This document shows positions 3,596 to 52,308 of a stretch of DNA of 64,000 bases, one piece after another. The stretch's first letter is position 1. Each line of letters opens with the position of its first letter. Source of the DNA: Bifidobacteriaceae bacterium. Lineage in GTDB: Bacteria > Actinomycetota > Actinomycetes > Actinomycetales > WQXJ01. The DNA lies in NCBI GenBank assembly GCA_031267825.1, contig JAIRYJ010000023.1, positions 1-64,000 on the forward strand, in the 5' to 3' direction. The notes under the pieces were generated by a model. It saw only the letters and a program-made list of their open reading frames with translations. It ran no database searches and was not told the DNA's origin. Both the position numbers and the translations under genes were made by a program.

Positions 3596-9513
<5,918 letters not shown>

Positions 9514-9671: not shown

Positions 9672-12128
9672 TCAGGCGGACTCAGCTACTAGTTTGCCGT
9701 CCACCACATGGAAATGAACCTCACGTGTCTTGGCCCGTGAGAGCAACCCAATGAACTCGTGTTCAATGTTGCGTTGCAGATGACGGGCACCATAAGCCGG
9801 GTCATAGCCGTTAGTGGCGAGCCATTGTGTGACCTCGTTATCCCAGTGCACCGCCCAACCACTGGCCGTCAACCTGGTACGAGCGGCGTTCAGCTCAGTG
9901 GTGGCGATCTCTTCAATAGCCTGAGGGCTGAGCGCTTCAAATACCACAATGTCATCAAGCCGGTTGATCAGTTCTGGTGCCATCCGTTCTTTGACGATTG
10001 ACATCAGACGATCCGCGTCAACCGCGCCAGCACCAATCTTGGCGCCAAAGCCGACAGCCTGATTCTTCGCCTCCTGCAACCCTAAGTTAGAGGTCATGAT
10101 GACAACCGACTCGGAAAAGTCAGCCACCGTGCCACGCGAGTCAGTCAGGCGGCCAGCGTCAAAGACTTGGAGGAAGATGTTCCAAACCCGCGGGTGGGCT
10201 TTTTCGATCTCGTCGAGCAGCACCACGCTGCGTGGCATGGCCGCCACCTTGGTGGTCAGCCAGCTTTCCGGCTCAGTTGATCCAACGAACCCAGGGGCTG
10301 GGCCAACGATCCGTGACAGGGCCCAATCGTCGTAATACTCGCTCATGTCGAGCCGGATCAGCCGGTCCGCGCCACCGAACTCGTGGACCGCTAGTTCGCG
10401 GGCCAGATGGGTCTTGCCTACACCGGTCGGCCCAATGAACAAGAAAACACCATTAGGCCGGTCAGGCCGCAAATCGAGGTGTGCCCGGGTGATAGTTAGC
10501 CGGTCAGCTACCCGGATGATGGCTTCTGGCTGTCCCTTAACCCGGTCACCTAAGGCTGTGGCCAGGGCTTCAGCCTCATGCCGGATCGGTGAATCTATCA
10601 GCGTGGGTGAAAGGTGCTTAACATCCACAGTCCTATCGCCCAGCAGGTGGCAACGAGCTACGGCCAAATCAAGACGCGATATGCCGAGGCCAGGCTGGGC
10701 CGGCCCGTTGGAACCAACTCGCGGCGCCGTGGCGGCCGCCACGGTTTCGCCGTCCATCGCTAAGCCGAACCGGGCGGCCAGTTCATCACCTCTGGTTTTG
10801 ACGATCTCTTCGACCGCCTCTGGCGGTAACTCTGGCAACGGCGTTATTTCAAGGGCGTCACCAAGTGACTGGGCCACAACTTTGAGGCGCGACAAGTAAC
10901 GCCGGTTCAATACCACCAGGATCCGCAGGTTACGGTGGAAACGAGCCTCGCTGATGACACTGAGCAGGCCGCGATTAACGTTGTCGGTTCCCAGATCAGC
11001 CATCTCATCTAGATCATCGAGCACAATCACGGCAGGCTCTTTGGTGGTCGCCATGACGGACCGCATTGTGCCAGTGGGGCTTGAACCCGCCGTATCAGGT
11101 CCGATCCGCCAAACCGGTACAGGCTCCTCCAAGGCGTCCAAGCGGGCCGCGATCGCCCCCAACAGAGCGGTCCGGCCGGTGCCTGGATCACCGGTGATGG
11201 CGGCGATGACCGGTTCGGAGCGCAAAAGCTGAGCCGCCACATCACTCGCTTCACGGTCACGCAAGCCAAGATCAGGCTTCGGTTCGACCAGTTTGACGAC
11301 CTCTTCGAGTCCCTTGGCGATAGCTGGGCCGCGGTTAGCTTTGGCCGAGCTGGCCGCACGGTCCCCGGGCAAGGCGTTAGCCGGACCGTCAGAACCGGAC
11401 CGGCCGGTGTCGCCGGTCGGCATATCTGATGACGCGTCTGACCCGCTGTCCGCCGCGGCGTCTGAGTCTTTACTGGCTGGGCTGGCCGAACCGTAACCGC
11501 CGCCTGAGGCGCCATCAGATGAACCGCCAGCGCCTGCCCCAGAACTTCCCCGCTCCGGGCTTTCGGCGGGATTTGGACCACCTTTAGAGAACGCCGAACC
11601 ATCACCGGAGCGGCGTGGCGGCCTGGCTCCCCCCTTGGAGAAAGTTGAACTCCGGCTTTCACCGCCACTTGATCCGCTAACGCCTAAATCCTCTGGTCCG
11701 CCGCCCGCGCTGGACGTCCCCCCAGATCCGGCCGCGCCGCCAGACAAGCCACCTGAGCTAGCTGAGCCAGAAGGACCGGTCGAGTCGGCCGGGCCAGAAG
11801 GGCCAGAAGGATCAACCGGGCCGCCAGCCGTATCTCCAGCCGCCGTCAAATCATCTTTCAGATCAGCGAACAGAGCCTGCGCGATCTCAAGCGTCGAACC
11901 GGCCTGCGACAGGATGCTAGTTAGCTGTGCTTCTGTGCCACGGAACTGGCCGGCGCTAAGCAATGACTCAACCCGTGAACGGCCACTCGGGCCGAAAACC
12001 TGTTCAAACTCATCGCTGCGCTTAATCGCCAGCGCCCAGGCGGCGTGGGTCAGGGACGGTTCACTACCCCCCCAGCGTTTAGTTTCAGAGCGGGCACGGT
12101 CAAGAATCATCGCGGCAACTGGCAGCAT
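9672..12128 (-). CDS. Clp-like AAA+ ATPase with long Gly/Ser/Pro linker
   Basis: An 818-residue two-module AAA+ protein of the ClpA/ClpC type. Residues 1-95 resemble one Clp-N repeat. About 100-270 is a disordered linker of Gly, Ser, Pro and Asp. The first AAA module is degenerate (Walker A GDPGTGRTALL, Walker B VIVLDDLDEM). The second is canonical: GPTGVGKTHLA, VVLLDEIEKAHP, PELINRLDDIVVF and the C-terminal YDPAYGARHLQR. A VGFGA segment sits where ClpC/ClpA carry the ClpP-docking loop, so ClpP contact is possible. The ATG at 12128 has a GAGGAG ribosome site inside the end of the upstream YbjN-like gene, so the two are probably coupled. Unfoldase function is inferred from the family; the target is unknown. 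Confidence 0.85.
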   Translation of the reverse strand: MLPVAAMILDRARSETKRWGGSEPSLTHAAWALAIKRSDEFEQVFGPSGRSRVESLLSAGQFRGTEAQLTSILSQAGSTLEIAQALFADLKDDLTAAGDTAGGPVDPSGPSGPADSTGPSGSASSGGLSGGAAGSGGTSSAGGGPEDLGVSGSSGGESRSSTFSKGGARPPRRSGDGSAFSKGGPNPAESPERGSSGAGAGGSSDGASGGGYGSASPASKDSDAAADSGSDASSDMPTGDTGRSGSDGPANALPGDRAASSAKANRGPAIAKGLEEVVKLVEPKPDLGLRDREASDVAAQLLRSEPVIAAITGDPGTGRTALLGAIAARLDALEEPVPVWRIGPDTAGSSPTGTMRSVMATTKEPAVIVLDDLDEMADLGTDNVNRGLLSVISEARFHRNLRILVVLNRRYLSRLKVVAQSLGDALEITPLPELPPEAVEEIVKTRGDELAARFGLAMDGETVAAATAPRVGSNGPAQPGLGISRLDLAVARCHLLGDRTVDVKHLSPTLIDSPIRHEAEALATALGDRVKGQPEAIIRVADRLTITRAHLDLRPDRPNGVFLFIGPTGVGKTHLARELAVHEFGGADRLIRLDMSEYYDDWALSRIVGPAPGFVGSTEPESWLTTKVAAMPRSVVLLDEIEKAHPRVWNIFLQVFDAGRLTDSRGTVADFSESVVIMTSNLGLQEAKNQAVGFGAKIGAGAVDADRLMSIVKERMAPELINRLDDIVVFEALSPQAIEEIATTELNAARTRLTASGWAVHWDNEVTQWLATNGYDPAYGARHLQRNIEHEFIGLLSRAKTREVHFHVVDGKLVAESA

Positions 12129-12135
12129 AGTCAGA

Positions 12136-12567
12136 TCACTCCTCGTGGAACCGGCTGCCGCCAAACTTGGCTTGCAGCTCTTCATCAAACCTGTTGGCTG
12201 TTTCCATCACGAAAGCCAAAGCGAATCCCAACTCTGGCTCGTCAATATAATCGCCCAGCAAAACATGTCTCAGCATCAAATCAACAGTTCCGTCAGACCT
12301 CATTTTCAGGTGGTATGAGCCGAACAAGAAGGTGTCGTTGAAGGCCAGCCAACGGTGCAGTTCTGGCGAATCGACCGCTCCGGTCAGCACCGGAGCAAAA
12401 ATCAAAACGACGGAGAAGTCATCACTATCATTCCCAACGACCCGCACAAAACCGCGAGCCGATTCGCGCCGGATCGTGAAATCGCCATCGGAATCTATTG
12501 TCGCCGACCCGTAAATGTTCGTCAGATACTGCTGTACGCGAGACCTGACCATCTCAGTTTTTGACAT
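12136..12567 (-). CDS. YbjN-fold / secretion-chaperone-like protein
   Basis: A 143-residue acidic protein resembling YbjN and the type III secretion chaperone fold widely found in Actinobacteria (recognisable run VRSRVQQYLTNIYG, then a beta-rich middle with VRVVGNDSDDFSVVL). It starts at ATG 12567 behind an AAGGA ribosome site. It lies eight bases upstream of the Clp-like ATPase start, so they form a two-gene unit. A peptide-binding or adaptor role for the ATPase is an inference from fold and linkage. Confidence 0.75.
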   Translation of the reverse strand: MSKTEMVRSRVQQYLTNIYGSATIDSDGDFTIRRESARGFVRVVGNDSDDFSVVLIFAPVLTGAVDSPELHRWLAFNDTFLFGSYHLKMRSDGTVDLMLRHVLLGDYIDEPELGFALAFVMETANRFDEELQAKFGGSRFHEE

Positions 12568-29332: not shown

Positions 29333-29496
29333 CTGACCACTGTATGACTCGGCCCGCCCGTCTGCCAGGTGGCGGTGCCCCACCCAACGGCCAGCCATCT
29401 GCCGCAACCCACTCACCAGGCAGCCATGCCCGGGGAGGGCCACCCGCCTTCAGAACCAGCTCTCATATCGCGGGCCTGGCCCGCGCGGGTGGGTCT

Positions 29497-31860
29497 ATGG
29501 CATACCCTTGGACCGTGTTCTTGCGGCTAGCGCACGGAATTGTGCGTCACCCAATCATCACCTTGCTCATCTGGTGTCTGGCTACCGCCACAGGCGCCGC
29601 CCTGGCTGTGGTCGGCGTCACCGGAGACGGCCTATTCGACAGGGTCAGTTCTGGGGCGCCACTCGCCCCAGATAGTGATTCGTCTGAAGCGGACAAGATT
29701 ATTCAGGACGGCGCGCACTCCGATCAGACCATAACTTTGCAGGTAAACGGCATCAATTTAGCTGACGTTAGGGTGGTTGGCGAGGTTGCGACGATCCTCG
29801 GTCAGGCTCGCGCCGAACTAGCTGAGATTGATGGTGTGGCGCACCGCGCCTCCGATGGTTACGCCATGGTGATTGACCCGCTCAACCCCAGTTTCGCGAC
29901 CGATCCGGCGCTTGATCCGTTATCACCCGAAGCCGCCATGAGCGCTTTGGGAAACCAGGCGGTCCAAGGCATGGTGGCGCAAGACCGGCGTGGTCTGCTG
30001 CTGACAGTGGAGATCGCTAAAGACTTGGATGACAATACAAAAGCTTTAGCGGTCGATGCCGTCGTAGGGCGTCTTGAGAGCACGGCGGCAAGTCTGGAGG
30101 AATCAGTCCTTGGCGCTAACGCCTCTGTTGGCGGGCAGAGCTTGGTCCTGGACGAGATCATTTCAGCGATGAAACATGACCTTGAGCTTGGTGAGATGAT
30201 CGCTTTGCCGGTCGCCCTGTTGGTCATGGTCCTGGTTTTCGCGGGTTTCCTGGCCGCCGCTATGCCTGTGGCAGGCGCCATCGCATCCATTTTGACCTGC
30301 ATGGGCGCAGTTTTTGGCTTCACTTATGTGACAGATATACACACCTCGGTTATCAACGTCATATCTCTGATCGGTTTGGGGTTGTCGATTGACTACGGTC
30401 TGCTCGTAGTGTCGCGTTTCCGTGAGGAGGTCCGCCGGACCGGACCGGAGGGACGGACTGAACTGCCAGGCCGGGACTTAGCGGTAGTTAAACGGCGGGT
30501 CCGCCAGGCTGTCATTCAAACTGTTCGCACAGCCGGTAAGACCGTCTTCTATTCGGCTTTGACGATCGCTGTCTGTGTGGCCGGGTTGATGGCTTTTGAG
30601 CCGTCAATTCTGCGGACCTTTGGCTTGGCCGGGTTGATTGTTGTGCTGTTGGCGCTGGCCAGCGCTATAACACTGGTACCGGCTTTTCTGGTTCTGTTGG
30701 GCCGCTACCTGATTCAGCCTTCACCGCTGTCCCGCCTGCCTGGCTTGGCCTTGCTGTACTCCAAGTCGTCTGACATCAGCCCAGATGTTGGGGTCTTTTC
30801 TAAACTGGCCGCGGCTGTCCAGAAGCATCCTTGGCTGGTGATGGGTGGCGTGCTGGTGATAATGGGTGCCTTGGCTTGGCCTGCCCGTGGCATCGAGTTG
30901 CGCAACTCAACAGTTGAGTTACTGCCAATTGATTCACCGCAACAAGAGTTCCTGCATGATTTGGCCCGCGACTATCCCGGTACAGGATCAGATGGCATAA
31001 CAGTTGTCTCACAAGGTAACCCTCAAGCCACCGAACAGTTCGCCCGTGATCATTTGGCTGACATACCGGATACGGAACTGATTGTGCGGGCTGATGGTTC
31101 AGCCGCGATCGAAATGGACGGCTACGCCCTGGTCATCTTGCGGGTTGAGGCGGCCGACAATGAAGGACCTGAGGCCCGCGCCGCGGTCAGAGCGGTCCGG
31201 GCCGCTGAGCTGCCCGATTTCGCTATCCATGTGACTGGCCCGGCAGCTCATCTGCTCGATTTTGAGGATCAACTCAAACAGGGCGCCCCGAAGGCCGCCA
31301 TCATCATCTGTTTGGCGGTTTTTGTTCTGCTGTTCTTGTTTACCGGATCGATCCTGATACCACTCAAAGCCTTGATCACCAACGCTTTATCGCTGCTGGC
31401 TTGCCTTGGGGCGGTGACTTGGGTTTTCCAGGATGGGCATTTTGAGGGCCTGCTCGGCTTCAACGCGATGAACGGCATTGAAAGCTACATTGTGGTGCTG
31501 TTACTGATTTTCAGTTTTGGCCTGGCGATGGATTATGAGGTGTTCCTCATTTCACGGATCAAAGAAGCCTGGGATCAGGGGCATGACCCTCAAGGTTCGG
31601 TACGTGACGGTCTGCAGCATTCGGGCCGTATCATCACTTCAGCCGCCCTGATTATCATCATGGTTTTCCTCGGTTTTGTGGCCGGCGATTTGGTGATCAT
31701 CAAAGAGATGGGGATAGGGCTGGCCGTGACGGTGGCGTTGGACGCCACCTTGGTTCGGATGTTGCTTGTCCCAGCCACCATGTCTGTTCTAGGCAAATGG
31801 AATTGGTGGGCCCCCAAGCCGCTGGTCTGGCTCCATTCCAAGCTCGGTTTAACTGAATAA
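29497..31860 (+). CDS. MMPL/RND-family transporter
   Basis: A 787-residue membrane protein with two sets of six helices and two large external loops, like MmpL proteins that export lipids or drugs. An N-terminal helix follows the basic HGIVRHP. The first helix cluster has GLGLSIDYGLLVVSRFREE and the second FGLAMDYEVFLISRIKEAW, the paired Asp-Tyr motifs of proton-driven MmpL pumps. ATG 29497 was chosen because similarity begins there; the frame is open to 29344, overlapping rarA. Its cargo is unknown. Confidence 0.9.
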   Translation: MAYPWTVFLRLAHGIVRHPIITLLIWCLATATGAALAVVGVTGDGLFDRVSSGAPLAPDSDSSEADKIIQDGAHSDQTITLQVNGINLADVRVVGEVATILGQARAELAEIDGVAHRASDGYAMVIDPLNPSFATDPALDPLSPEAAMSALGNQAVQGMVAQDRRGLLLTVEIAKDLDDNTKALAVDAVVGRLESTAASLEESVLGANASVGGQSLVLDEIISAMKHDLELGEMIALPVALLVMVLVFAGFLAAAMPVAGAIASILTCMGAVFGFTYVTDIHTSVINVISLIGLGLSIDYGLLVVSRFREEVRRTGPEGRTELPGRDLAVVKRRVRQAVIQTVRTAGKTVFYSALTIAVCVAGLMAFEPSILRTFGLAGLIVVLLALASAITLVPAFLVLLGRYLIQPSPLSRLPGLALLYSKSSDISPDVGVFSKLAAAVQKHPWLVMGGVLVIMGALAWPARGIELRNSTVELLPIDSPQQEFLHDLARDYPGTGSDGITVVSQGNPQATEQFARDHLADIPDTELIVRADGSAAIEMDGYALVILRVEAADNEGPEARAAVRAVRAAELPDFAIHVTGPAAHLLDFEDQLKQGAPKAAIIICLAVFVLLFLFTGSILIPLKALITNALSLLACLGAVTWVFQDGHFEGLLGFNAMNGIESYIVVLLLIFSFGLAMDYEVFLISRIKEAWDQGHDPQGSVRDGLQHSGRIITSAALIIIMVFLGFVAGDLVIIKEMGIGLAVTVALDATLVRMLLVPATMSVLGKWNWWAPKPLVWLHSKLGLTE

Positions 31861-35507: not shown

Positions 35508-36320
35508 ATGATGGCGAAGCGCAACTACAAGCGTGAACGTGAACGCAGCAAGGCTTTGGCGCGGCAGCAGCGGATGATTCAAGCGGCCCGGCGCCGGCGG
35601 CGCAACCAGATCATCGCGGGTGTGACAGTGGCCGCGTTGGCGGCTGGTGGGATTGTCACAGCCGTTGTGGTCTCTGTTGTCAACAGCCGTAACGCGCCGG
35701 TTGATTCACCGATCAGTGACTTGACTGATGGCGCTGATCTGACCACACCTGACACTGGCGAAACCCCGGCCAGTGAGCCGGGCCCTAATCCGCGGGCTAG
35801 TTACACGGCGGCGCCGAGTCCGGTTTTGGCTGAGGGACGCGAATGGACCGGCCAGATTCAGACATCGGTTGGGAACTTAGAGATCACCCTGGATGGTGTG
35901 GCGGCACCGCAAGCGACAGCCAACTTTGTGGTTTTGGCGCATGACGGCTACTTTGATGCGACTTCTTGCCACCGGGTGACACTGGGTGAGACTGGAATTT
36001 TGCAATGCGGTTCGGTTACTGGTGATGGCACCGATAATCCGGGCTACCAGTTTGGCCCGTTGGAGAACACCCCGGAAGGTGATGTTTACCCGGTTGGGAC
36101 TATCGCCATGGCCCGCACCCAGGCAGGCGAGGACACTATGGGTTCACAGTTCTTCATTGTTTACCAGGAGTCTGTTTTCCCTGGTGGTTACACCATTTTT
36201 GGGCATGTCACGTCTGGTATTGACATCATTGAAGAGGTCGCCAAGCAGGGCACCACTAACTCAACCATGGACGGCCCGCCGAACACGACAGTTACGATCG
36301 ATCGGATTGAATTACAGTGA
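35508..36320 (+). CDS. Membrane-anchored cyclophilin-type peptidylprolyl isomerase
   Basis: A 270-residue protein. The N-terminal 35 residues are strongly basic, then one transmembrane helix ([21 protein letters not shown]), then a linker of Pro, Asp and Thr, then a cyclophilin domain outside the membrane. Catalytic-site segments are [14 protein letters not shown] and [10 protein letters not shown]. It isomerises Xaa-Pro bonds of exported proteins. AGGAAAGG precedes ATG 35508. It overlaps the DUF349 gene by four bases (GTGA), and is divergent from hisS across 144 bases. Confidence 0.92.
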
Positions 36321-38128
36321 ATACCGAATCCGGTGCCAGCGCCACGCCTCTTCCGGCTGACGATGCCGCCGTTACAGTTCCCAGCGCCACCAGCGGTTCA
36401 GTTGATTCGCCCGATGCCGCCCAAGTAGTTACGCCGCCCGCTCCGGTTCCGTTGGAGCTCAGTCCGGAAGTTTCTCCGGAACTGGAGGTAGGTTCTGAGC
36501 CTGAATCAGAACCCGAGCCTGAACCCGAACCAGCCGACGTCACGCCGGAGCCCGAGCCGGAGCCGGAGCCTGAACCCGAACCGGCCGACGTCACGCCGGA
36601 GCCCGAGCTGGAGCCGGAGCCTGAACCGGCCGACGCCACGCCCGAGCTTGAACCAGCCGACGCCACCCCGGAGCCCGAGCTGGAGCCGGAGCCTGAACCC
36701 GAACCGGCCGACGTCACGCCGGAGCCTGAACCGGCCGACGCCGCCCCGGCACCGAAACCAGCCTCCCCCAGTCCCTCCGCCATACCCAGGCCCGGACCTA
36801 GACCTGGTCCCCGCCCAGGTGTTGGGACGGCATCGGGCACAGCTGTGGCAACCCCACCACGCCATTCAGCGGCTGCCATCGCGGCCGCCGCTGAATGGGG
36901 CCGGGTCGAGGCGGACGGCACAGTCTTTGTCCGTGAAGGCAAGTCCGAACGCGCCGTTGGCCAATTCCCTGGCGTACCCGCCGCCGAAGCCCTAGCACTT
37001 TACGCCAAACGGTTCCTCGATCTGGAAGCCCAGGTTGACCTGTTCGAGGCCCGCCTCGAACAGTTAGCCCAGAAAGACATCGACCAGACCCTGTCTAACC
37101 TCAAACAGGCCCTAACCGAGCCAGCCGCCGTCGGTGACCTGGTGGCTTTGCGGGCCAAATACCGGGCCGTCAAAGCCCACGCCAGCCTGGTGCGCCAGCG
37201 GATCGAAGCCGACCGGGCGGCCGCCAGAACCCAGGCCCTGGAGGAACGGACCGCCATGGTGACCGAAGCCGAAGCTCTGGCCGGTCAGGACGCCGAACAG
37301 ATCAACTGGAAACACACCTCAAACCGGTTACGGGAAATCCTCGACGCTTGGCGTGAAGCCCAACGTTCCGGCCCGAAGATTGATCACGACATCGAAGACG
37401 AACTGTGGAAACGCTACTCGCACGCTCGTGCCACCATCGACCGCAAACGGCGAGCCTACTTCGCTGAACTCGACAAACGGCAAGGCGCGGCCAAGTCAGC
37501 CAAGGAACAAATCGTCGCCGAAGCCGAGAAACTAGCGACATCACAAGACTGGGGTAACACCGGGCGCGAGTTCCGTAACCTGATGGATCGCTGGCGGGCC
37601 GCCGGACGGATCGGCCGACGCGAAGATGACGCTCTGTGGGAACGGTTCCGGGCGGCCCAGGAAAGGTTCTTCCAGTCACGTGACGCCCAGCATGCCGCCA
37701 ACGACGCTGAACGCGAATCCAACCTGCAAGCCAAGCTAGCCATCCTAGAAGAAGCCGAAAAGCTGCTTCCGGTGACCGATTTGAAGGCCGCCAAAGCCAA
37801 GCTGCGCCAGTTACAGGACCGCTGGGACAAGATCGGTCATGTGCCGCGAAAGGACGCCGATACGGTTGAGCAGCGCATGAAGACAGTTGAGGACGCCATC
37901 CGGGCTGAAGAAGACCGCACTTGGCGGCGCTCCAACCCTGAAACGATCGCCCGCATGAGTTCTATGACATCACAGCTTGAAGCGGTCATCGAAGGTTTGG
38001 AAAAGAAACTCGTCAAGGTTCGGGCGACCGGTGATGAGACCTCAATCGCGGCGCTTGAAGAAGACATCAAGAGCCGTAAGTTGATGCTGCATAACTTGCG
38101 TCAGTCGGCCGGGCGCGGCTGGGAATAG
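36317..38128 (+). CDS. DUF349 coiled-coil protein
   Basis: A 603-residue protein. About residues 55-145 are a Glu/Pro tract (repeating [15 protein letters not shown]), followed by a Pro/Arg stretch. The rest is charged helix with DUF349 repeats, each marked by a Trp in a sequence such as [31 protein letters not shown] and [19 protein letters not shown]349 proteins are widespread in Actinobacteria without a settled role. It uses a GTG start overlapping the cyclophilin stop. Very similar coding repeats at 36500-36740 make the gene prone to length change. Confidence 0.88.
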
Positions 38129-42255: not shown

Positions 42256-44390
42256 CAGCCTTCACCTCCATCCGGCTCGGAGCCGTTAGTTCGGGTTTCG
42301 TCAGCCGCCCGTCGTTTGCGTTCGGCGATCGATAAGCCGGCCTCACCTGGGACCCTCTCAGCCACAACGGTGGTTGTTTTCTTCTTGTCCGATGCCGCCG
42401 GTTCGGCTCCCGGCACCGGTTCGGCTGCGGTGGCCGCGTCAGGTGTGGTAACGGCGCCAACCGCCCGGAACTGCCCCCGGCCGGCGTAACGCACGGCGCC
42501 CGGAGCCCCCAGACGGTACGGGTCAAGACCAGACCACGGGTGACCGTCAGCCCAGTACTTGAAACGGCTGAGCAGAACAACTGTCGGATGGGTGAACAAG
42601 ATCACAACCACCAGGTCCATCACCGTGGTCAAACCTAAGGTGAAGGCGAAGCCGCGGACACCACCAACCGCGACCAGGTAAAGCACAACGGCGGCCAAGA
42701 AGTTGACACCATCTGAGGCGATAATTGTGCGCCGGGCCCTGACCCAGGCCAAGTCAACGGCTTGGCTCAAACCACGCCCAACGCGCAGCTCGTCACGTAT
42801 TCGCTCAAAATAAACAATGAACGAGTCCGCTGTGATACCGATCGCCACAATCATGCCGGCCACACCAGCCAGCGACAGGCGGTAACCCTGCAACCAGCCC
42901 AGCAGGACGATCGTTCCGTAGGAGATACCAGTCGCCAAGATCAGTGACAGCATTGTCACAACCGACAGTGAACGGTATTGGAAGAACGAATAAATGAAGA
43001 CCGCGATCAAACCGATCAGTCCAGACCACAGACCAATTCTGAGCTGATCAGACCCAGCCGTAGCGGAAATCTGGTCTTGCGAATCGACATTGAAGTTGAT
43101 CGGCAAAGAACCGAAAGACAACTGCCCGGCCAGTGTCTTAGAACTGGCCTGGGTGAAAGTGCCGGAGATTTCTGCCCGGCCTGAGGGGATCGCACCATTG
43201 CAAACCTCCGGAGCCGACACGACGACATCGTCCAAGACAATCGCGAACTGGCGCCGCGGATCTTCGGCTGACTGCTGGCAAGTCGTGTTGAGCCGTTCGG
43301 TGACGGCGCCGAACTGCCTGCCGCCGGCCGTGTTGAACTCAATCGCCACCACCCATTGGCCGGTGGTGTTGCCTTGCGAGGTGGTTCCCATCAGGTTCTG
43401 GGCGTTGTCTAACTCTGAACCTTCAACCATGACTGGCCCCAGGATGAAGGCTTGAGAACCGTCATCGTTGCAGGTCACGAGCGCTTTATCAGGATCGGAT
43501 GGCTCGTTACCGCGGGCTGAACCGACCATGGAGCAGTTGACTGTCTGAGCGATGATCTGAGCTTTGGCGGTCGCTTCGGGGGTGCCGCTGGCGACCGCCT
43601 GCTGCACGTCAGCTTCAGTGCCTTCAAGCAGGTAGGCGTAATCCTCGATGATCTGGGAGTAGACGATCGATTCGTCCAAGGCGTTGTCAAGCCGGTAAGT
43701 GTAGGCCGCGTCGGGCGGCACTGGCAGGAAACCGGTTGTCTCATCAACTTTTGAGGTTGGGGTTGGCGCTGGTGCTGGTGCGGAGCTGGTGTCGGGCGTT
43801 GGAGAGGCCTCCGGGGTGGCTGACTCCTCTGGGGTGGCTGACTCCTCCGGGGTGGCTGACTCCTCAGGGTTAGCTGACTCCTCAGGGTTAGCTGACTCTT
43901 CTGGGTTGGCTGATTCTTCGGGGGTCGGCGAAGGCGAATAAGTTGGATTCGGATAATCGCGTGAAGCCCACGACGCCACCTGCGACTGGGTCGCACCAAC
44001 GACATACAACACAGTCCTAAATGACATCTTGGCGGACTTAGTCACCAAATCAAGATCATCTTGACTCGGGTTACCCGGAATTGACACCACAATGTTGTTA
44101 TTGCCTTGCCGGGCGATCTCCGCCTCAGCCACACCTTGGGCGTCAACCCGGGACCGGATAATGTCAATCGCCCGGTCAATCTGTTCAACTGTCACCTGCT
44201 GGCCCGCCTGAGCCGCCTGAGGCGTCAACACCAGCTGGGTGCCACCTTCTAGGTCAAGCGCGAACTTCGGCAAGAAAGTTGTTTTGCCTTGGGCTAAGCC
44301 AACACCGATACTGCCAAATATGGCTGCTATCAGCACAAACAAAACGATCAATGACCGCCCAGGCCGGGTCTTTTTGGAATATGTTGCCAC
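42255..44390 (-). CDS. secD: Protein translocase subunit SecD
   Basis: The 711-residue larger SecDF subunit. The N-terminal helix is followed by FALDLEGGTQLVLTP, then the P1 domain, and six C-terminal helices with GIVIAIGITADSF-like MIVAIGITADSFIVYFERIRDELR. Inside the periplasmic P1 region, at about residues 155-210, is an insert of seven EESAxP units (EESANP, EESATP) followed by a Pro/Thr/Ala stretch. A 50-residue low-complexity tail contains KKKTTT. Core motifs are intact. Confidence 0.95.
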   Translation of the reverse strand: MATYSKKTRPGRSLIVLFVLIAAIFGSIGVGLAQGKTTFLPKFALDLEGGTQLVLTPQAAQAGQQVTVEQIDRAIDIIRSRVDAQGVAEAEIARQGNNNIVVSIPGNPSQDDLDLVTKSAKMSFRTVLYVVGATQSQVASWASRDYPNPTYSPSPTPEESANPEESANPEESANPEESATPEESATPEESATPEASPTPDTSSAPAPAPTPTSKVDETTGFLPVPPDAAYTYRLDNALDESIVYSQIIEDYAYLLEGTEADVQQAVASGTPEATAKAQIIAQTVNCSMVGSARGNEPSDPDKALVTCNDDGSQAFILGPVMVEGSELDNAQNLMGTTSQGNTTGQWVVAIEFNTAGGRQFGAVTERLNTTCQQSAEDPRRQFAIVLDDVVVSAPEVCNGAIPSGRAEISGTFTQASSKTLAGQLSFGSLPINFNVDSQDQISATAGSDQLRIGLWSGLIGLIAVFIYSFFQYRSLSVVTMLSLILATGISYGTIVLLGWLQGYRLSLAGVAGMIVAIGITADSFIVYFERIRDELRVGRGLSQAVDLAWVRARRTIIASDGVNFLAAVVLYLVAVGGVRGFAFTLGLTTVMDLVVVILFTHPTVVLLSRFKYWADGHPWSGLDPYRLGAPGAVRYAGRGQFRAVGAVTTPDAATAAEPVPGAEPAASDKKKTTTVVAERVPGEAGLSIAERKRRAADETRTNGSEPDGGEG

Positions 44391-51029: not shown

Positions 51030-51637
51030 TCGGCGGCCTCACGCCATTGACGGTGAACCGCGGCCGTCCGTTGACCAACCGTCACCAGCGAACCGACGGT
51101 GATCAGGCCGAGCCCGCCCGCCAGAACCCACCACGGCAGGCCAAACCCCGTCAAAAGGGCTGTCACCAGGGCAATCACCAGCCGGTCGGTGCGTTCAGCG
51201 ATCCCAACTGAGGCGTCGTAGCCTAAAGCTCCGGCCCGCGCCCGGGCGTAAGGTACCAGGCCAGCGGCGGCGATGGCGGCCGCACCAGCGATCACGCCCC
51301 AGGTTTCACCGAGCAAGGCCAAGTAGATCGTCAAGCCAAGCAGCATGGCGCCATCAGCTACCCGGTCAAGTGTCGAATCCAGGAAAGCACCCCACTTTGA
51401 CTCCATACCAGCCAGGCGCGCCATTGTTCCGTCAAGCGCGTCAGTGGTCGCGATCAGGCCCAGCACCACCGCCCCCGGCCACAAATAGCCCAGCGGGAAA
51501 AGCGTCAAAGCTGATCCAGCGAACGCTACGGTCCCCATGACGGTAACAACGTTGGGCCGGACATGGTGGCGCACTAAGAAAGCCGCCGGACGGCCGAACA
51601 CCTTCTGTTCCAAGCCTTTTGATCTGGCGCCTAGCAT
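51026..51637 (-). CDS. pgsA: CDP-alcohol phosphatidyltransferase (PI-phosphate synthase)
   Basis: A 203-residue membrane enzyme with the CDP-alcohol motif DxxDGxxARxxxxxxxxGxxxDxxxD, seen as DALDGTMARL then FLDSTLDRVAD. In this gene context it most likely condenses CDP-diacylglycerol with inositol 3-phosphate to make PI phosphate. About six helices. It overlaps the HIT gene by seven bases. Confidence 0.88.
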   Translation of the reverse strand: MLGARSKGLEQKVFGRPAAFLVRHHVRPNVVTVMGTVAFAGSALTLFPLGYLWPGAVVLGLIATTDALDGTMARLAGMESKWGAFLDSTLDRVADGAMLLGLTIYLALLGETWGVIAGAAAIAAAGLVPYARARAGALGYDASVGIAERTDRLVIALVTALLTGFGLPWWVLAGGLGLITVGSLVTVGQRTAAVHRQWREAAE

Positions 51638-52308
51638 GCTGTGTCCTCCCAGGCGGCGGCGATGGCGTCCCGCGTCTGACCGAGCAGTTCAGGTAAAGCC
51701 CGGGTCTGCCCGACGATCGGAAAGAAGTTGGAGTCCGCTTTCCAGCGCGGCACAACATGTTGATGCAGGTGTGCCGCGATACCGGCACCGGCCGCTGAGC
51801 CTTGGTTAATTCCCAAGTTGAAGCCGTGCGGCCCTCTAGCTTGGACGATGGCGCGCATCGCGTGTTGGGTGAACGTGACTAACTCGCAGGCTTCGGTCTG
51901 ATCTAGATCAGTCAGTAAAGGCACATGACGGTAAGGGCAGATCAGAAGGTGTCCCGGGTTGTACGGGAAAAGATTAAGGACGGCGTAAACATGTTGCCCG
52001 CGAGCCACGATCAGGGCTTCGCTGTCCGGTTTGGTTGGTCCGGTGCAGAACGGACAGGCGGCTGGTGTTCCATCGGCGGGCCTGGCCTCACCGCCAATGT
52101 AAGCCATCCGGTGTGGCACCCACAGGCGTTCAAACCCGTCCGGCTGGCCAGCCAAGGCGCTGGCTGGTTCGGCTGGCGGGTCAACCGACGGGCTGACGGG
52201 CGGCGCTGCGACTGGCCCGCCTAACGGCCCGGCCGGAAACCCGGCCGCCAACCCGTCAGACAGTTGGGCGGGCTGGTCAGCTGTCGACCCGGGCTCCTGG
52301 TCAGCCAT
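51631..52308 (-). CDS. HIT-domain (Ap4A phosphorylase-like) protein
   Basis: A 225-residue protein. The first 55 residues are Pro/Ala/Gly-rich and variable. Then [13 protein letters not shown], a CPFC motif, and the His-triad [10 protein letters not shown] near 184 follow. Such actinobacterial proteins split dinucleoside polyphosphates. It always sits next to thrS and pgsA in this group; it overlaps thrS by eight bases. Confidence 0.9.

Follow-up and report, generated by a model that had tools for sequence, protein, structure and literature searches.

Does a small YbjN-type gene placed directly ahead of a Clp-type ATPase gene in a Bifidobacteriaceae genome encode an unfoldase with its own peptide-binding adaptor? 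We analyzed a stretch of 64,000 nucleotides (contig JAIRYJ010000023.1, positions 1 to 64,000; the window), in which an earlier note, made from the sequence alone, had recognized such a pair and proposed this function for it. The features of the pair are as follows, with residue numbers referring to the ATPase.

12136..12567, minus strand: TY-Chap1/YbjN-type chaperone gene, 143 aa (PF22551, PF10722; conserved in L030, G301, G005 and G328)
12139..12144, minus strand: GAGGAG within the YbjN-type gene, presumed ribosome-binding site of the ATPase gene (sequence)
9672..12128, minus strand: Clp-type double-AAA+ ATPase gene, 818 aa (Pfam and structure-relative matches)
11835..12128, minus strand: N-terminal helical domain, residues 1-98, resembling Clp N domains only in the model (block pLDDT 84-97; no Pfam match; profile not significant)
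11289..11834, minus strand: disordered Gly/Ser/Pro-rich linker, residues 99-280 (pLDDT <50 at 101-289; length variable in relatives)
10569..11288, minus strand: degenerate first AAA module (D1), residues 281-520 (profile match to Clp D1, probability 93%)
11169..11192, minus strand: D1 Walker A with Lys replaced by Arg, GDPGTGRT (Arg in 7/7 clade members)
11007..11030, minus strand: D1 Walker B ending in DD, VIVLDDLD (DD in 7/7)
9675..10568, minus strand: intact second AAA module (D2), residues 521-818 (PF07724 3.7e-42, PF10431 3.3e-13)
10410..10433, minus strand: D2 Walker A, GPTGVGKT (sequence motif)
10281..10292, minus strand: D2 pore loop, GFVG (five relatives have GYVG; no such loop was found in G619)
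10047..10055, minus strand: VGF at the position of the ClpP-docking loop (alignment to ClpC/ClpA-type loops)

The gene pair and the architecture of the ATPase

The small protein is a member of the TY-Chap1/YbjN superfamily. Its Pfam matches to TY-Chap1 (PF22551; E 4.5e-17, 62.4 bits vs a cut-off of 27) and YbjN (PF10722; E 9e-6, 26.4 bits vs a cut-off of 22) both score above the cut-offs. The ATPase gene starts 7 nt after it on the same (minus) strand, with its ATG at 12128. The junction reads CAC GAG GAG TGA TCTGACT ATG, in which GAGGAG represents the final two YbjN-type codons ahead of the TGA. The earlier note had described both the pairing of a YbjN-fold gene with a Clp-like AAA+ gene and a ribosome site of the ATPase gene within its neighbour, and both descriptions held. 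A promoter scan at the pair returned two overlapping weak sites (0.9 expected), two terminators were found (4.2 expected), and no clear break in GC content was detected there. Note that the structure model of the YbjN-type protein was poor (pLDDT 58). No secretion-type chaperone was present among its listed Foldseek and VIA matches, and given the quality of the model we dropped this match list as evidence against a chaperone fold.

The second AAA module of the ATPase is intact. In Pfam it was identified by AAA_2 (3.7e-42) and ClpB_D2-small (3.3e-13), and its Walker B reads VVLLDEIE. By sequence, the best solved relatives of the protein are ClpB and ClpC, with significance only over residues ~520-800. 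The first module matched the Clp D1 profile at a probability of 93% (Clp D2 at 80%) and is a decayed Clp D1. A degenerate first and an intact second module had indeed been predicted: D1 carries GRT and DD, and no KYRG loop was found in it, while the Walker motifs of D2 are preserved. At the M-domain site the alignment of the ATPase has a gap of about 60 columns, and the M-domain is missing. HMMER aligned the VGF segment of D2 with AGF in S. aureus ClpC and with IGL in 5ofo, a ClpB/ClpA chimera that carries the ClpA-type loop. Thus, the placing of VGF at the ClpP-docking site was borne out.

The region preceding D1 was less readily classified. In an AlphaFold model built from a 13-row alignment, residues 1-98 formed six helices (block pLDDT 84-97), followed by a stretch of pLDDT <50 (residues 101-289) and then the two AAA modules. 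The N-domain part of that alignment consisted of the window sequence, L030 and short stray stretches of two viral rows, and the predicted fold was therefore not copied from full Clp N domains. The best VIA match of the whole model was ClpB (4ciu; Z 28.6, rmsd 11.0 over 416), and that of D2 alone was 4lj7 (Z 27.7, rmsd 2.6 over 285). In three of the 50 VIA rows listed, the alignment starts within a ClpC or ClpB N domain, with a global rmsd of 28-35 A. Pfam Clp_N gave no match to the ATPase up to E 10, and hhalign of the N domain against Clp N domains reached a probability of 1%, which is not significant although the register is plausible. The single Clp-N-like repeat proposed earlier is thus matched by a confident six-helix model but not by Pfam or by the hhalign profile comparison. 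On the basis of the model, a Clp-N-like identity of residues 1-98 is plausible.

Signature and linkage among relatives

The seven pair-type ATPases (the window's included) grouped as one clade, with a support of 0.917, when a tree was built from 45 D2 domains. All seven have a D1 Walker A of the form GxxGxGR[T/S] and a D1 Walker B with DD, are missing KYRG, and keep Walker A and B of D2. A GYVG or GFVG pore loop is present in six of them and was not found in G619. ClpC and ClpA carry their ClpP loop at a corresponding place after TSN. At 13 residues past TSN, [V/I/A]GF occurs in 7/7 clade members, the loop around the motif being variable. The D2 domains of the clade are 36-47% identical to two further proteins of the host, which we read from their motifs as ClpB-like (L002) and ClpC-like (L003). 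These carry GKT and KYRG or RYRG, and the ClpC-like protein also has DE and a GF loop (MTGF); the ClpB-like protein is without such a motif at that place.

The very long linker to which the earlier note drew attention is present in the window (residues ~99-280) but is not conserved across relatives. D1 Walker A begins at residue 313, 182, 175, 251 and 188 in five full-length members. We rejected the linker as a defining feature, on account of this variable start and of low-complexity stretches being common in the window. Five other ORFs of the 57 mechanically called in the window carry stretches rich in Gly/Ser/Pro/Ala/Thr: a SucA-like protein (3596-7915, plus strand) with ~197 residues in such stretches, and the ORFs at 29344-31857, 36317-38125, 42258-44390 and 51634-52308 with 55-122 such residues each. 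Long low-complexity linkers thus recur in the window.

The ATPase gene lies directly downstream of the YbjN ortholog in all five genomes with a close ortholog (blastp below 1e-20; window included). The gaps are 7, 3, 5, 5 and 3 nt in the window, L030, G301, G005 and G328, respectively, the last counted in the sequence with the stop codon excluded. The two genes are therefore not unlinked in relatives, the finding that would have spoken against the pair as originally proposed. A D1 profile matched 7 of 396 genomes of the order (G000, G005, G301, G009, G328, G619 and G298), and a scan of a genome collection added one MAG, Propionibacteriaceae bacterium Md513_bin133 (L030). The pair occurs in 3 of 10 genomes of the window's genus, several of them incomplete; of the 18 genomes of the family, four have the ATPase N domain and three have the YbjN protein. 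YbjN profile matches in the family of G328 were limited to G328 itself (1/24 genomes).

Two ATPase copies are without a visible YbjN partner. In G009, the ATPase is located 280 bp from the contig start, and a YbjN gene is absent from the stretch, with no match genome-wide. In G619, a phage-type integrase next to tRNA-Leu overlaps the frame of the ATPase, and no YbjN match was present in the 19 kb around it. From the integrase to position 8842 of L063 the frame has no start codon, and the N domain is unmatched; this copy is therefore probably 5'-truncated. A repeat of the tRNA end of at least 13 nt was not found within the same 19 kb. The contig of G005 stops ~67 codons into the ATPase, with the D1-D2 part on another contig (L065). 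The D1 match in G298 was weak and partial. Its ATPase (L066, 1515-3293) is cut by the contig, has a different N-terminal region and has no YbjN match on the 3.3 kb contig; it perhaps represents a sister family.

Genomic setting and the wider TY-Chap1 family

In the window, the pair sits between two genes that we take, from reading of the ORFs, to be guaB and a DnaQ-type exonuclease gene. It is flanked by housekeeping genes, and no defence gene adjoins it. In G001, of the same genus, guaB and the DnaQ-type gene are ~0.16 kb apart and the pair is absent. In G300, the gap is occupied by a PIN-domain gene and an RHH-like gene (RHH below the Pfam cut-off), the PIN-domain gene following the RHH-like gene at the place of the window pair (L232, 771-1501). 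These two were the only ones of 16 other DnaQ loci with guaB on that side within up to 1.5 kb; in G009, the end of guaB lies on the other side. The neighbours of the pair differ among L030, G301, G005 and G328. The pair-free site in G001 and these differing neighbours indicate that the pair was gained, lost or moved as a block.

In the complete genome G328, druF and druE come after the pair in the same orientation, translationally coupled to it by an ATGA overlap between the ATPase gene and druF; their PADLOC matches are DruF2 (1.5e-163) and DruE2 (E=0). This same-strand run (L064, 1-10658) lies beside a C-terminal ZorD-like piece and a GIY-YIG gene, with a weak PD-T4-3-like gene nearby, and is possibly an extended Druantia operon. 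DruF2 occurs in 16 of the 396 genomes of the order, and none of the other 15 DruF loci contained a YbjN or pair-ATPase profile match. A recurrent link of the pair to Druantia (1/16 DruF loci) was therefore rejected. The window genome had no DruF match at 1e-10, and the arrangement that characterizes Druantia, a DruE helicase and DruF in one locus, is present in G328 only. In the accessible text of a Druantia preprint (PMC12458937), the words 'Clp' and 'chaperone' are absent. PADLOC matches of the pair ATPase also included DolB (82 bits) as well as PDC-M37B (102 bits). We rejected these matches as evidence for defence because host D2 domains score similarly (97 and 131 bits for the ClpC-like protein, 75 and 123 bits for the ClpB-like protein). 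With the mad8 profile the window ATPase scored higher than the host proteins (41 vs 18-19 bits), but weakly.

Across 396 genomes of the phylum, the YbjN profile matched 27 at 1e-6 (own included). We examined 28 TY-Chap1 loci outside the close clade, from genomes with a YbjN-profile or PF22551 match (6-20 kb each, some cut by contig ends). A Clp ATPase matching the pair-ATPase profile lay beside the TY-Chap1 gene in one of them, G072. There, the TY-Chap1 gene follows the Clp-like ATPase gene on the same strand with few bases between. D1 of this ATPase keeps its Walker A and D2 is without one, the mirror image of the window protein, and the D2 tree places it outside the pair clade. The region (L124, 7632-12923, and L054, 811-9558) also has a second, more ordinary Clp-type ATPase, a second P-loop protein and two TIR-domain genes. 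In G647 (L093, 2509-4650) and G711 (L094, 3890-5881), large proteins have a TY-Chap1 domain in their C-terminal half; the first 560 residues of one of them (714 aa) are without a Pfam match, and the other carries DUF3293.

The window YbjN protein had no match in plasmids or phages, that of G328 none in plasmids, and YbjN none in viral contigs. Of the 2097 plasmid records matched by the G328 ATPase, none covered more than 80% of the query, and the 15 listed covered the D2 half alone. Viral contigs returned general Clp proteins (594 of 600 stretches being relatives), and the 80 kept were nearly all D2-only matches.

A candidate adaptor-unfoldase module and its alternatives

ClpC functions with adaptors, as in MecA-ClpC-ClpP and in ClpS with ClpC1, and MecA/ClpC/ClpP structure entries were among the VIA matches listed. 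Like ClpC, the window ATPase would be a double-ring Clp unfoldase with an LGF-type loop (VGF aligned) and an N-terminal domain able to take adaptors, in a genome containing ClpP1P2. In ClpC, however, both modules have intact Walker motifs and D1 contains a short M-domain, whereas the window D1 has GRT and DD, only D2 is intact, and the M-domain is missing. Moreover, the window ATPase has a long tether and no detectable Clp_N family match, and its partner is a coupled TY-Chap1/YbjN gene in place of MecA or ClpS. The altered D1, the missing M-domain and the separate D2 clade support the proposed distinction from ClpC. ClpB has a long M-domain and no LGF-type loop, in contrast to the window ATPase with VGF and no M-domain. 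ClpI, in the part of its description available to us, is likewise a Clp class that exists in addition to ClpB and ClpC and whose N domain varies, and its ClpIa subtype has the loop; none is listed there in Propionibacteriales (PMC10149685). As described in the same source, however, the ATPase modules of ClpI are intact and an M-domain is present, which sets the window ATPase apart (PMC10149685). The small protein shares its Pfam family with the TY-Chap1 proteins, predicted peptide-binding chaperones of conflict-type gene neighbourhoods; Clp and AAA are absent from the accessible text on them (PMC9503650). In the literature searched, mostly outside subscription journals, we found no paper that connects YbjN or TY-Chap to a Clp ATPase. 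As far as sequence can tell, the pair would operate as ClpC-type systems of adaptor, unfoldase and protease do, yet it departs from ClpC, ClpI and ClpB in features that define them.

We see about an even chance that the pair forms an accessory adaptor-unfoldase module feeding ClpP1P2. A TY-Chap1/YbjN dimer would bind an extended stretch of the client, as type III secretion chaperones do, and hand it over to its cognate Clp ATPase at the N domain, with the flexible tether of variable length allowing the N domain to reach. The first ring would no longer burn ATP and would serve as a scaffold. The second ring, as the motor, would pull the client through the GYVG-lined pore, and the [I/V]GF loop would feed it to the host ClpP1P2. 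In the available parts of the sources, YbjN proteins resemble class I secretion chaperones, which are dimers with grooves that fit extended chains (PMC5398634), and Clp unfoldases use pore loops to thread clients and LGF-type loops to hold ClpP (PMC10149685). This reading is supported by the 5/5 linkage, the D1, D2 and loop signature in 7/7 ATPases, the coupling in G072 outside the clade and the two adjacent ClpP genes of the genome. Against it count G009 and G619 without a partner, the TY-Chap1 genes mostly without a Clp neighbour, the poor YbjN model, the single Druantia locus in 16 and the lack of an adjoining defence gene in the window.

The pair may instead act independently of ClpP, with the chaperone holding a partner protein or complex that the ATPase remodels and releases, much as the chaperones of type III secretion act together with their ATPase, or TRIP13 with HORMA domains. 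The relation of TY-Chap1 to secretion chaperones (PMC9503650) and the switches of an AAA+ protein plus a peptide-binding co-chaperone described in conflict systems (PMC7159879), both as given in the accessible parts of these papers, would fit such an activity, and the G328 pair could remodel DruF-DruE. We consider this unlikely: [V/I/A]GF is maintained at one position in 7/7 ATPases although the surrounding loop varies, and ClpP1P2 is present in the genome. That the unit is two-gene, coupled and patchy, and that the same guaB-dnaQ gap holds a PIN and RHH-like pair in G300, would also agree with a controlled toxin-antitoxin-type unit, in which the YbjN protein inhibits or regulates the ATPase or is the main client of the ATPase. 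Both proteins come from families of chaperones or unfoldases, however, and Pfam detected no effector domain in either of them, making such a unit distinctly improbable. Already disfavoured, and in our estimation highly improbable, is an adjacency of functionally unrelated genes, with an ATPase that is a divergent ClpC or ClpI of the ordinary sort. In its favour are the large size of both protein families, the additional Clp classes of Actinomycetota (PMC10149685, as far as accessible) and the two ATPase copies without a visible partner; but the linkage at 3-7 nt persists in five genomes with differing neighbours, D1 is altered, the M-domain is missing and the D2 clade is separate.

For the adaptor-unfoldase module, the patchy distribution and changing neighbours favour an accessory role, perhaps a conflict-related one. 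Neither these two features nor the Druantia link had figured in the earlier note. Considering the distribution together with the one Druantia operon, a conflict or defence role is somewhat more likely than a housekeeping role. Possible but doubtful is a mobile targeted-degradation module of two genes plugged into conflict systems, in which a Clp unfoldase with a single motor is combined with a chaperone-type adaptor of its own; it would drive or license DruF-DruE of Druantia in one lineage and elsewhere, acting alone, unfold invader or toxin proteins into ClpP1P2.

If the adaptor-unfoldase reading is correct, the pair would represent a clade of Clp unfoldases that is accompanied by an adaptor of its own and has an altered first ring in all members seen. 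It would provide a natural test of the role of D1 in double-ring Clp machines, and the TY-Chap1/YbjN family would gain a defined ATPase partner. The pair is also a candidate for connecting regulated proteolysis with anti-phage operons.
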